Below, piece by piece: positions 285-42,885 of a stretch of 64,000 nucleotides of DNA. The stretch's first letter is position 1. Each line of letters begins with the position of its first letter. The stretch comes from Apostichopus japonicus (Eukaryota > Echinodermata > Holothuroidea > Aspidochirotida > Stichopodidae). Under the pieces are notes generated by a model. It was not told the DNA's origin, ran no database searches, and saw only the letters and a program-made list of their open reading frames with translations. A program made the position numbers and the translations under genes. The DNA lies in NCBI RefSeq assembly GCF_037975245.1, contig NC_092583.1, positions 14,485,264-14,549,263 of the forward strand, given 5' to 3'.

Positions 285-829
285 CTATATGGAACAAACA
301 GCACATGTTACTTCATACCCGTCGGTGTAAGGTGGACATATGCCACCGTTTGGAGATTTCATGGCTTCAACAAGAAACATCTCCGAGTTAAGGGAGTCCC
401 CTTGTGGTGTGGATCTCGATGTTGGATACCTATCGAGACAGACAAACTCGGTACGGTAGTATGTATACTTATCTGCTACGATAAAGCCATTGTATTCTAC
501 TTGCCAGCCGTTTGGACACGAATATCTTCCAGGAATCATCAACACAGTGGTGCGTTCACGTGCTCTGCATACAGCACAGGGTACGTCGCTGTTGTCCAGA
601 TAATCATAATGAGAATCAGCCAACTGATACTCAACACTGTATATCCGGCTCCTATCACCTTGTTGACCTGCAAAAGGATCTATATATTCGGGTGATGATG
701 AGAGACATATGTAGTTACTGCCCCCACCACGCTCATCATGGCGTGGGCCAGCCGCAATTCCAATATAAACCAAATCCGAAGAGGGAGGGCATAAAGCTCG
801 CCCCCATCTTACGTAGACCCCTCCACTCC
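285..829 (-). CDS. Gene A exon 2: C4-like cysteine-rich domain
   Basis: Acceptor TTTATTCCTCCTTTGCAG lies immediately before base 829, and the exon opens in phase needing one upstream base. The domain holds [27 protein letters not shown], a CAVC motif, the [13 protein letters not shown] block, FVCLDRYP and a terminal TCAVC. This is the same cysteine pattern as copies B and C, but the sequence is far more diverged, so A is an older paralogue. Confidence 0.82.
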
Positions 830-3800
830 CTGCAAAGGAGGAATAAAGAAAAAATAGTGACACTCCACACGGAATCGAAAGAGAATGGAAATGCACGTCA
901 CTCATCGTCCATTCATTGTTCGGTCACTGATATTCGCTACGACATTATGTAGATCAGCTTTGTCTGTTCTTTTCAACAGAAGGTACAATACTGTGCATCA
1001 TAGGTAGGGGGGGGGGAGGGAGCTATTTGTTCAGATTGTCCATGCACGACGAAAGACTTGTTTTGACGCAATACGTGTGCCATTGTTGACCTTAGCTGTC
1101 ATGGACATCTGAAGGGCGTAGACAAGTAATGTAATGTTGGGATAGAGATATTGATATTTTCAGGAGTGTTGAATATGATCGTTTCATAGTTTAGCGTGGC
1201 GGGGATAACATCCCTGGCTACTAACTTTTGGCGTAACAAGGACCAACAGGCACCCGTGCAGTATTTTAGAAATAAGCCCACAAAGGAAAGTCCACATTCA
1301 CAAAAGCTCAACTATGGTGAACAATATTTGATTTTTGTCACTTTCAGACTCTCAGACTTTGAGGATAGGAGTTCGTTTGAACTCCATGTTTGGTCGGTAA
1401 AAACTTCACCTCCATGTCAAGTGATACAGGAAATCCTGATGAATTAGTTACTTATAGGAATACGTTGGAGAGTAAATGACTTATCGTATACTTCCATGCA
1501 ACAGCTTAGACAAATAAAATGCTACAGAGAAACTAACTAAAACAAATAAATATTAAACATATATAAAATATAATATATATATTAATATATATATATATAT
1601 ATATATATATATATATATATATATATATATATATATATATATATATATGGGCCCGACCAGCACGCTCAATTACCGACCGCCACAATCTGCCTGAGTGCCT
1701 TTTCCGACCGGCACTTATTTTCGATAGGAACTCCAAAAAACAGCTCCATAGCCGAAGGGTCGAACGTACAGAAACAATCTGTTTGAGACTAGGGGAAATC
1801 CAGTTCATAACTGTTCAAAATGTCCAACACATCACAGTGTCATACTTAGTAAAAATTACCAGAGTTCCGCATTCCAGACCAATGACTGTTTTCCGTTTCC
1901 AACTCCCGATCGTACTTTTGATAGTTTCATATATATCTATTTTTATCGCGCGAGACACATGCACTATCCAGCTAGCTAGTACACATACTGCCGTTAACCT
2001 TCGTAGCGGGTGAGTTTACATCATATTGCATTAGGCACGAGTGACTAGGGCTGGAAAACCTTGCGAACCGTCCGAACCAGGTTCGCGGGAAATCCGCGAT
2101 GCTTGCGGGAAATCCAGCCCGGCTGGCGAAAAAAAAATCGGACAAAAAAAAAATAGAAAATTAGTCACAATACCAACGAGTAATGATGTGTCCCCAACCC
2201 ACTTACAATGGCTATTTCGCAAGCTTCAGGGTATACGTGTCACACGGACACCCACGGCCCAGCGCGGGAAGGTTGCTGTAATAAATCAGCCTCGCGGGTA
2301 ATGTTTTGAACAATATTGCCATTCCACGTTCTTTTATATTTGTTTGTATGTTGGTTAGTAAACGTTTCCTTTCGTATGAATTTGACTTCAGTTCAGTGTT
2401 CCCACTAAGGTGCGGGATTCCCTTCAACTGACTCAGTAATCCCGCAAAGAAAACATTTGTCTGCTGGAAATCCCCGCATCGTTTTTTGCATTCGCGATGA
2501 GTTTATACTCAATGTACAACTTATTCACTTGACCGTATAGAGAAAAAAAACTGAAAATCAATTGTGTACCAATTGTGTACGGAAAGGCGGTAGGCTACAC
2601 CTTTCAAATTTTACGAAAGATCGAGCAAAGCACTTTCGAAAAATTCACGCCAAACTTGCATATCGTACTAAATGCAACTAATGTCATGTAAACAAGGCTC
2701 TAGTGCATCCATTTATGAATATACCGTAAGACCACACCTGGTGTTAAGCGGGGGGGGGGGGGGGAAGAAAGTATTTTCTAGCATTTCCAAAAATACAGAA
2801 AAAATAATATCCTACCATAGTTAAGTGTATAGCAAATAGCCTAACCACCTCGGCGGTTATAATGGATCTCACGTAACTACAAAATCACAACTAATTGTAT
2901 TTTGCGGAGTTTACGTTTTCTACAAGAACATGGAAACAATATTTAGCATTGAGTTAATCATGCCAAGTGGCCTAAAACATGTGATTACAAGGGTAACTTT
3001 CATAGAGATGGCCATAGCAAGTGGCCTTGATATCGTGCTATGCGTGTATGGTATGGACTGTGCCTCGTGTTTCATGGGTGTGCATGCGGAGGAGTCAGTT
3101 GGCTTGAGGTGTGTTTTACTTACCTAAATGTAACGGGGATATTTCACTACTTTTCTTGAACGTCTAAGATATCATTTCGCATAACTTTACCGATCCTTTA
3201 CTGACTGACCTAATTAATTCCGGGAACGAAAAAAGTTTACCCCATGAAAAGTTCCCTGGCAACGTGCCAAAATTTTTTAACAAACAGGTGTTAGACAGGG
3301 GATGAGCTCACAATTGTTTGGCAAGGTACCTGGGAAAATTCGCAGCACATGTACCGTGGTAGTTGGGCAGGGTTAAAAACTGCAGTAATAAACGCTGTTC
3401 GAAGGTTCACTGCATGATATCGCGCAGTTGATCGGAGTTATTCACTAGTTTACTGTTTATTTGTACATGAAATTACACTCAGATTTTGTATTCACTACTC
3501 GATACATGAGAAGCAGCGTTAGTCGCTCAGTGTGTATATCATAACTGTCGTAAATTAAGTCAGTTCCGGCGAGAAGAGATAGAAAGAAGACAACCATTTT
3601 TCTGAGTTCCTCTGCTCAGCGCCTGCTTGTCCAATATTGAAAGGTGACTTAATGAGAGAGAATACATAATTCATTATGATTCGTCTTTATTTCGGAGTAG
3701 ACTCTCTGTACTCTCTCTCCACCCACCTCTCTCTCCACCCACCTCTCTCTCTCTCTCTCTCTCTATATATATATATATATACATACATACGACTCAATGC

Positions 3801-41502: not shown

Positions 41503-42059
41503 TTACTTGGTGCAAACTGCGCATGTCAGCTCGTATCCGTTAACGTAAGGACCACATGGCAAACCTCCACCTGTCCCTGAGCAAATTCCCTCAACAGGCT
41601 GCATGGTAGCAAAATCGTTGCTGGCTGCAGCCGTACCAGAGCGATACGTAGGATGCCCATCAAGGCATACGTACTGTGTACGTTGATGTGTGCTTCTTTC
41701 AGCCATTAGGAACCCGTAGTATTCTCTAGTCCAACCACTGGGACAAGACGGACGAGCTGGGACCATGAGTACAGTGGACCGGCCGATGGACTCACAGACT
41801 GCACACGGAACATCATGCTCAACAAGAGACTGTATTGGCGGGAAATCAAATCTGTATTCTACACCATATAGTCTGCTGGTTCTGTCTTGGACACCATTCT
41901 GGGGTCTGTCATAGACTGGACTCTCTGGAAGGCAAAGGTAATTGGCACCCCCTCCTGTGGCAGCACGTTCTGCTCCTGCAGCTAAACCACTATACACCTG
42001 GTCAGCTGAGGACGGGCACACGTCCCTCCCCCAACGGATGTAGACGCCACCTGATGAAC
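41503..42059 (-). CDS. Gene C last exon: C4-like domain
   Basis: Acceptor CATCTTTCCTCAG precedes base 42059. The frame closes a few codons further into the intron than in gene B because the intron has an in-frame stop (CTCAGATTATTT region), which confirms that the intronic extension seen in B is not coding. Confidence 0.85.
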
Positions 42060-42885
42060 CTGAGGAAAGATGAAGGCCGGCTTGATTAGAAATGGTTGCT
42101 ATAAAGTGACACTGACTCTGCTCAGATTATTTCAATGGCTTAAAGTCAATTAATTCTCTCAGTGAGTTGCAAAGTTCCATACCGTACACCATGGTATTTG
42201 AAATCCCTGCTCTTCCATAAGCTGAAGGTACAGGAAGGGTCATTTTCAAATTTATTTTAGTTTTAAAGCCCATCAGTCACCCATCTATTTCTGTGTGGAG
42301 TTTCGATGTCCCCAACCCTGCTTCCACCTCCTACCTTCACGAAGCTTGCTGACTTGGCAGATTTTAGAAGAATATCGTAGCATTTCGATTTAGTTCTTTT
42401 TAGTTTGTGCTGTTAATCATGCATATTCACGAATATGGTATATATGTTAAAACATAATTAAATTCCATGATCTATCTATGTAGAGTAAATGATGACACTC
42501 ATAAATCTCATGCTCATATATATGAAGTGAATAGCCCATTACTTTCAGATGTTTTGACTTGATCCATCATCTCTGCTTCACTCAGTGCAGTCTGTATGGG
42601 AGTAGAGTTCTGCTTATCGTTGGTGAATCGAGAATGGAAGAGATCGTAAAGATAGTCTAATTGTACTTGCTGATCATGAATGACCTCTGCTAAATCCACA
42701 GCATCAGTCGGACTGCTCTCTGCTCCCTCAGTATTTGAGGTACCATTCTCTGCATCCGGTAGTCCAATCGCCTCATTGTCGTCTATCTCAGACTGCGCTG
42801 GCATTTCCTGGGACCCTTCCATCGGTATCCCAGAACCTGCAGCCAGCACCGTCAATAAAAGCAGCTTTGTAAATGTTGCTTCCAT
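41503..42885 (-). CDS. Secreted short-chain collagen C4-like protein, gene C
   Basis: Coding exons 42543-42885 (343 nt) and 41503-42059 (557 nt) give 299 aa plus stop in frame, with the same split Ser codon as gene B. Signal peptide MEATFTKLLLLTVLAAGSGI, acidic stalk, then the C4-like domain ending TCAVCTK. All domain cysteines are conserved. An acceptor (TTTTGTTTTCTCTAG) again precedes the ATG by five bases. By eye, the last exon differs from gene B by about 14 amino-acid-changing and 11 silent base changes plus a three-base deletion; no stop or frameshift. That is what two retained coding copies would show. Confidence 0.82.
42543..42885 (-). CDS. Gene C first coding exon
   Basis: ATG at 42885-42883, donor CTGAAA|GTAATG (42543/42542). 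Signal peptide and acidic stalk with NGTSNTEGAE, LAEVIHDQQVQLDYLYDLFH and EAEMMDQVKTSE. Confidence 0.8.

Follow-up and report, generated by a model that had tools for sequence, protein, structure and literature searches.

Three genes in the window

The stretch analyzed here, 64,000 nucleotides of the genome of the sea cucumber Apostichopus japonicus (contig NC_092583.1, positions 14,485,264 to 14,549,263; hereafter the window), carries three minus-strand genes, A, B, and C, in each of which a leader exon is joined through a GT/AG intron to a single domain exon (Table 1). We consider it probable, at about 0.7, that they encode rod-less proteins of the spongin type, which begin with a signal-peptide-like segment, continue with a short acidic leader, and end in an NC1-type head of two repeats.

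All three leader exons stop one base into a codon (phase 1). The donor of A is AACATCAG/GTAAAA at 6276, where the slash marks the splice point, and that of both B (29725) and C (42543) is CTGAAA/GTAATG; the acceptor is TTTGCAG/GG in A (829) and TCCTCAG/GT in B (29238) and C (42059). These junctions are predictions based on homology, reading frame, and splice signals. After splicing, the frames are open over 286 (A), 301 (B), and 299 (C) residues, and the spliced coding lengths calculated from the coordinates, stop included, are 861, 906, and 900 bases. The phase-1 junctions proposed in the first-pass annotation of this DNA (6276/829, 29725/29238, and 42543/42059) thus agree with the GT/AG signals and open frames, as does its statement that the spliced lengths are multiples of three. 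The translations begin with hydrophobic N termini that are signal-peptide-like by inspection.

Genes B and C are recent duplicates. They lie in the two copies of a duplicated segment, the listed blocks of which are 90–95% identical when the window is compared with itself, and are 90% identical in their leaders and 92% identical in their heads. The three-member family described previously therefore comprises only two independent lines, A and B/C. A 41-base minisatellite is present in ∼13 copies within the first segment copy (32111–32637) and in ∼34 copies near the second (43711–45111). Elsewhere in the window, the intron of A contains a minus-strand open frame (5895–6263) that reads like a GIY-YIG endonuclease, presumably a piece of a Penelope-like element, and a charged, low-complexity minus-strand frame of 196 residues (59691–60281) is possibly an exon of a disordered protein.

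Table 1. Coordinates of the features of genes A, B, and C, the duplicated segment, and the bacterial relatives
Feature	Position	Strand	Basis or remark
Gene A leader exon, coding part	6276..6591	-	Hydrophobic start, acidic stretch, coiled-coil-like stretch, NIT site, RRKR site
Gene A coiled-coil-like stretch	6376..6459	-	Residues 45-72; heptad scan, 7/8 a/d positions L/I/V/M
Gene A RRKR furin-type site, shortly N-terminal of head	6286..6297	-	Motif scan; predicted
Gene A phase-1 intron, 5446 bases	830..6275	-	Coding strand without Gly-X-Y run of at least 4 triplets
Gene A exon 2, spongin NC1-type head, 9 Cys	285..829	-	Stop at 285-287
Gene B leader exon, hydrophobic start, acidic stretch	29725..30070	-	Translation
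Gene B phase-1 intron, 486 bases	29239..29724	-	96.5% identity to C intron over aligned part
Gene B exon 2, head domain, 10 Cys	28679..29238	-	Translation
Gene C leader exon, near-copy of B leader	42543..42885	-	Heptad scan, no coiled-coil pattern
Gene C phase-1 intron, 483 bases	42060..42542	-	Splice signals
Gene C exon 2, head domain, 10 Cys	41503..42059	-	Translation
Duplicated segment, first copy with gaps, holds gene B	28573..37212	.	Window self-comparison
Duplicated segment, second copy with gaps, holds gene C	41396..49391	.	Window self-comparison
Bacterial proteins, Gly-X-Y stalks with spongin-type head or half-repeats	L032:3870-5546, L032:689-2230, L033:1493-2344		

Identity of the head domain

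The heads of A and C share 51% identity, with a local alignment score of 461 against a shuffle mean of 33, which upholds the homology between the domain exons of A and B/C on which the first-pass annotation relied. The head is a tandem repeat, the N-terminal half matching the C-terminal half at 97.5% (E 5.9e-12), above 40 shuffles. A profile of the head matched the NC1 domain of collagen IV at 82% (E 1.1e-5, 38 columns), above 60 shuffles, and a profile with full-length rows did so at 80%. Structure prediction, which had been recommended as a check, gave a low-confidence model of the head, and all 14 PDB entries listed for it are collagen IV NC1. A model built with no head sequences other than the three of the window had a mean predicted local distance difference test score of 32 and was discarded.

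Spongin NC1 domains are recognized by ten cysteines, seven in common with collagen IV and three of their own, according to PMC5395295. The heads of B and C each contain ten and that of A nine, the number alone being compared. The head of A is left with an odd number of cysteines; in most paralogues nine are found in the main exon, and in L022, seven. The HSQ motif was absent from the heads of A, B, and C in a motif scan. The Pfam C4 model (PF01413) gave no match at E values up to 10 to A, C, or 22 family members, and none of the Pfam models matched the head; nor did PDB sequence searches with the domain or with a 22-row profile produce any match. A C1q-type head was considered and rejected, with no Pfam C1q match in either A or C. 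The domain that A, B, and C have in common is, judged from its sequence, the NC1-type head found in spongin short-chain collagens, and the two halves, the NC1 profile match, and the lack of HSQ support the C4-like affiliation originally assigned to the genes.

No Gly-X-Y run of six or more triplets was found in any frame of the window. On the coding strand, runs of four or more triplets are absent from the introns of A, B, and C and from the regions upstream of A (6600–12000) and C (42885–46000). Since A, B, and C combine a spongin-family head with no Gly-X-Y rod, their products are not collagens.

The family across the genome

A search of the whole assembly (671,581,487 bases in 35 contigs) with the head of C (184 residues) returned at least 104 exon matches, so that the family is not local, as had been supposed, but genome-wide. 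Among the matches listed, 39 cover at least 140 of the 184 residues in one frame (35 stop-free, four with one in-frame stop), and 19 others are confined to roughly the C-terminal half, with 18 being stop-free. The four copies with a stop all lie on contig C10 (G000:C10:4459219-6090559) and are likely decayed genes. Collagen IV proper is also encoded in the genome: six exon matches on C10 fall into two NC1 clusters of opposite orientation (G000:C10:1882989-2033557), which resemble the divergently arranged gene pair typical of collagen IV.

Thirty family loci, including A, B, and C, were fetched with 1.5-kb flanks. Eight contain a Gly-X-Y run of at least six triplets (L007–L009, L015–L017, L024, and L026), and two more have such a run further upstream (L011, in L037, and L027, in L044), giving 10 of 30; the remaining 20, which include A, B, C, and L003–L006, showed no such run within the stretches read. 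The leader exon of L003 ends in phase 1 (G/GTAATGA), and its 6-kb stretch has a single 12-residue Gly-X-Y run, devoid of proline, with no rod as far as it was read. The domain exons of L003–L006 are near-identical, with open frames, and the 3.6-kb locus of L004 is 98.5% identical to that of L003; L004–L006 are therefore taken to be rod-less like L003.

The exon bearing YxRWG is separate from the rest of the domain in 16 loci, all 16 of which have a phase-1 GT donor at the same VYxG position; this donor was picked by position, and GTs in other phases also lie nearby. In five of these loci (L015–L017, L024, and L026), the YxRWG exon also holds Gly-X-Y and begins inside a split Gly codon. The whole domain occupies one exon in A, B, C, L003–L006, and L007–L009. 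Because phase 1 is found repeatedly in the family, no shuffling is required to explain why the leader junction has it, and the shared phase, formerly read as a possible sign of shuffling, is simply the usual phase of the family.

The leaders and the case for exon shuffling

The leaders of A and C align with a score of 30, equal to the shuffle mean. Extended by the first residues of the next exon, their score was reached by 117 of 1000 shuffles, rising to 239 without the signal peptide and to 770 without the first 20 residues. Corresponding counts were 688 for A against L003, 230 for C against L003, and 148 for A against the coil of L027. The description of the leaders as barely alike thus applies to A against B/C, where nothing exceeds chance, but not to B against C, at 90% identity. 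By contrast, the score of leader A was reached by only 6 of 1000 shuffles against collagenous L007 and 38 against L009, and in a second test by 6 and 2, respectively (11 and 22 without the signal peptide). These three genes have in common, in order, a hydrophobic start, a coil, and an RRxR-type site; in L007 and L009, RRTRR is followed by Gly-X-Y and then by the head, all in one exon. It is suggestive, allowing for a contribution of composition, that the leader of A may be a fast-changed version of the N-terminal region of the family. For the leaders of B/C and L003, no homology to any other leader was demonstrable in the alignment-shuffle tests.

L007 and L009 (G000:C13) show how such a pattern could arise. 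Their DNA is 91.6% identical only from approximately RRTRR to just past the stop; the leaders and flanks are not alike, the synonymous divergence (dS) being 3.2 in the leader, a value at saturation, and 0.28 in the body. A body under constraint that undergoes gene conversion, next to a leader that changes fast, would account for this, and the same combination yields the pattern of conserved domain and unlike leaders noted in the first-pass annotation. Its suggestion of very fast leader evolution consequently gains some support for A, from the likeness to L007 and L009 and their leader dS, and none for B/C and L003, where homology is not apparent.

The chief alternative, which the first-pass annotation had offered as one possibility and which we regard as unlikely, though conceivable for the leaders of B/C and L003, is exon shuffling, with a phase-1 head module inserted repeatedly behind unrelated secreted first exons. 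Such an origin would account for the leaders of A, C, and L003 that do not align with one another, for the leader of L003, whose tandem acidic repeats of ∼18 residues (SDxxxIETLYPDNEVNAAL type; L036, reverse strand, about 1570–1980) are unlike other leaders, and for the clearly different stalks that carry the head in bacterial relatives (see below). It is opposed by the recurrence of phase 1 even inside the domain, by the resemblance of leader A to those of L007 and L009, by the single leader common to B and C, and by the decoupling of leader and body in L007/L009, which occurs within one exon and offers no intron to shuffle at.

A proposed model for loss of the rod

The rod-less spongin-type reading can be set out as follows. 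The exon anatomy, the intron phase, the head homology, the lack of Gly-X-Y in A, B, and C, and its presence in some paralogues are observed. An ancestral gene would have consisted of a leader, Gly-X-Y exons, and the head, separated by phase-1 introns; once the Gly-X-Y part was lost in the A/B/C branch, the leader exon would be joined directly to the head exon with the phase unchanged. The proteins would be secreted, and the head may trimerise as the NC1 domain of collagen IV does, aided in A by the coiled coil. A may also be cut at its RRKR motif by a furin-type protease, freeing the head. Rather than building a fibre, the product, a soluble head stabilised by disulphides, would bind or cap partners in the matrix.

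An unrooted tree of 28 rows was built from the 35 of a first tree by removing 12 near-copies and adding five bacterial rows. C pairs with L003 at 100/99, and this pair groups with A and the collagenous L027 at 84/88 (84/86 with 35 rows), which is not firm. If it holds, the simple reading is that the rod was lost once in the A/C/L003 branch; otherwise, more than one loss would be needed.

A more skeptical view holds that A, B, and C are collagenous copies in decay, with an accidentally lost rod and no product. In its favor are the in-frame stops in four of the 39 long matches, all on C10, the cysteine missing from the ten in A, and the near-neutral ratio of nonsynonymous (dN) to synonymous change in the B–C leader (dN/dS = 0.042/0.055, from few changes). 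However, the frames of A, B, and C are all open over 286–301 residues, the B–C domain has a dN of 0.038 against a dS of 0.092 (again from few changes), and L003–L006 form four near-identical copies with open domain frames, the leader exon of L003 being open too; we therefore judge decay to be quite improbable. Least probable of all is that the leader exons were misread, with transcripts starting elsewhere and collagen exons outside the stretches read, an idea encouraged by junctions derived from sequence and by a 5.4-kb intron in A with long AT repeats and a tandem repeat, but countered by the lack of such Gly-X-Y runs in the window and the tested upstream stretches and by the agreement among A, B, C, and L003 in frame, phase, and hydrophobic start.

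Bacterial relatives of the head

A pattern-seeded scan of prokaryotes (one genome per species, 84,980 species) gave four pattern matches, of which two are relatives, both from bacterial metagenome-assembled genomes (Deltaproteobacteria, Myxococcales): L032 (43%, E 9e-38) and L033 (40%, E 3e-36). Among 282 genomes of the same phylum, 7 matched with profile A2 and 11 with profile A3, which includes L032 and L033; in both counts, the genome that supplied the centre is itself among the matches, of which several are weak or incomplete. One match lies more than 1 Mb into its contig (G117), and six divergent loci have a guanine-plus-cytosine content of 0.63–0.70, so animal contamination is an unlikely source of these heads.

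Four of the head-bearing bacterial proteins read have Gly-X-Y stalks (L032, L033, L050, and L054), and others have repeat-rich stalks devoid of Gly-X-Y. A second L032 protein combines Gly-X-Y with two short half-repeats that are similar by eye. Ten cysteines were counted in six of six bacterial heads. The head thus appears, from these sequences, to be an exchangeable tip in bacteria too. Matches of the bacterial proteins to PHROGs and NCBIfam fall mostly on the Gly-X-Y stretch. A candidate viral relative (L031; 30 residues, 47%, across a 209-residue minus-strand frame) was taken as chance, and further scans of viral contigs, and scans of phages and plasmids (plasmids with the bacterial head only), yielded no relative.

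In the tree, the 10 bacterial rows are split from the 18 animal rows by a branch at 98/100, with a warning of long branches; being unrooted, the tree does not decide the direction of any transfer. We advance only tentatively, and on balance doubt, that the spongin head is not an animal invention and that the combination of Gly-X-Y with NC1, as in spongin and perhaps collagen IV, passed between bacteria and early animals. On that reading, which notes that the heads of Myxococcota stand on collagen-like and other stalks and are more divergent than those of this animal genome, the combination would possibly have moved from adhesion fibres of bacteria into animal matrix, and the sea cucumber genes would represent a head still being freed from its rod.

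Relation to known proteins and implications

The spongin short-chain collagens are reportedly, after Aouacheria and colleagues in 2006, the "short-chain collagen C4-like" proteins. A, B, and C share with them the two-half head, the ten cysteines (B and C), the lack of HSQ, the NC1 profile match, and the collagenous paralogues, but differ, as does L003 as far as read, in having no Gly-X-Y rod. With collagen IV (NC1, or C4 tandem domain, PF01413) they share the tandem-repeat register by profile and the fold by the low-confidence model, whereas their heads have neither a Pfam C4 match nor HSQ and the genome has a separate collagen IV.

The closest precedent for an NC1 domain lacking a collagen tail is in ctenophores, where stand-alone genes encoding a signal peptide and NC1 were reported as novel and as restricted to that phylum; these fall with collagen IV and retain the second HSQ motif, unlike the spongin-type head of A, B, and C (PMC5395295). 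The same source gives spongins as known across invertebrates except ecdysozoans. In the bacterial relatives, the head sits at the tip of long stalked proteins, an arrangement comparable to the mosaic adhesive trimer fibres of Bdellovibrio (PMC10769870, the main text of which does not contain the word collagen). The Bdello_MAT_N model matched the two L032 proteins weakly, at 26.2 and 19.2 bits, below the NCBIfam cut-off of 60, and gave no match with the L033 protein or three others, two of which are cut N-terminally. No spongin-type or NC1 head in bacteria was found in passages of PMC5395295, PMC12141075, PMC12923769, PMC5560861, and PMC10769870 or in literature searches, which is no proof that none has been published.

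A 2023 review of echinoderm matrix lists two genes of the collagen IV group, and its main text lacks the word spongin (PMC10381214). A short-chain C4-like collagen other than A, B, and C is raised during ambulacrum regeneration in the sea cucumber Eupentacta fraudatrix (PMC9785333), and two short-chain C4-like genes, again not A, B, or C, are likewise raised in a sea anemone pedal disc (PMC6626399). Given that tail-less NC1 is reported from ctenophores only and that the echinoderm review is silent on spongin, we place the rod-less spongin-type head of an echinoderm, within the literature searched, as a little-described variant of a known family. The under-described system of the first-pass annotation is accordingly narrowed: the domain is that of the known spongin short-chain collagens.

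The host animal has a large repertoire of spongin-type genes, and annotation can readily overlook a head with no Pfam match. With the bacterial relatives, the long-standing question of the origin of Gly-X-Y with NC1 becomes testable by trees spanning sponges, cnidarians, and these bacteria. If the rod-less reading is true, A, B, and C would be natural experiments in which an assembly head of the collagen IV type works without a collagen rod.

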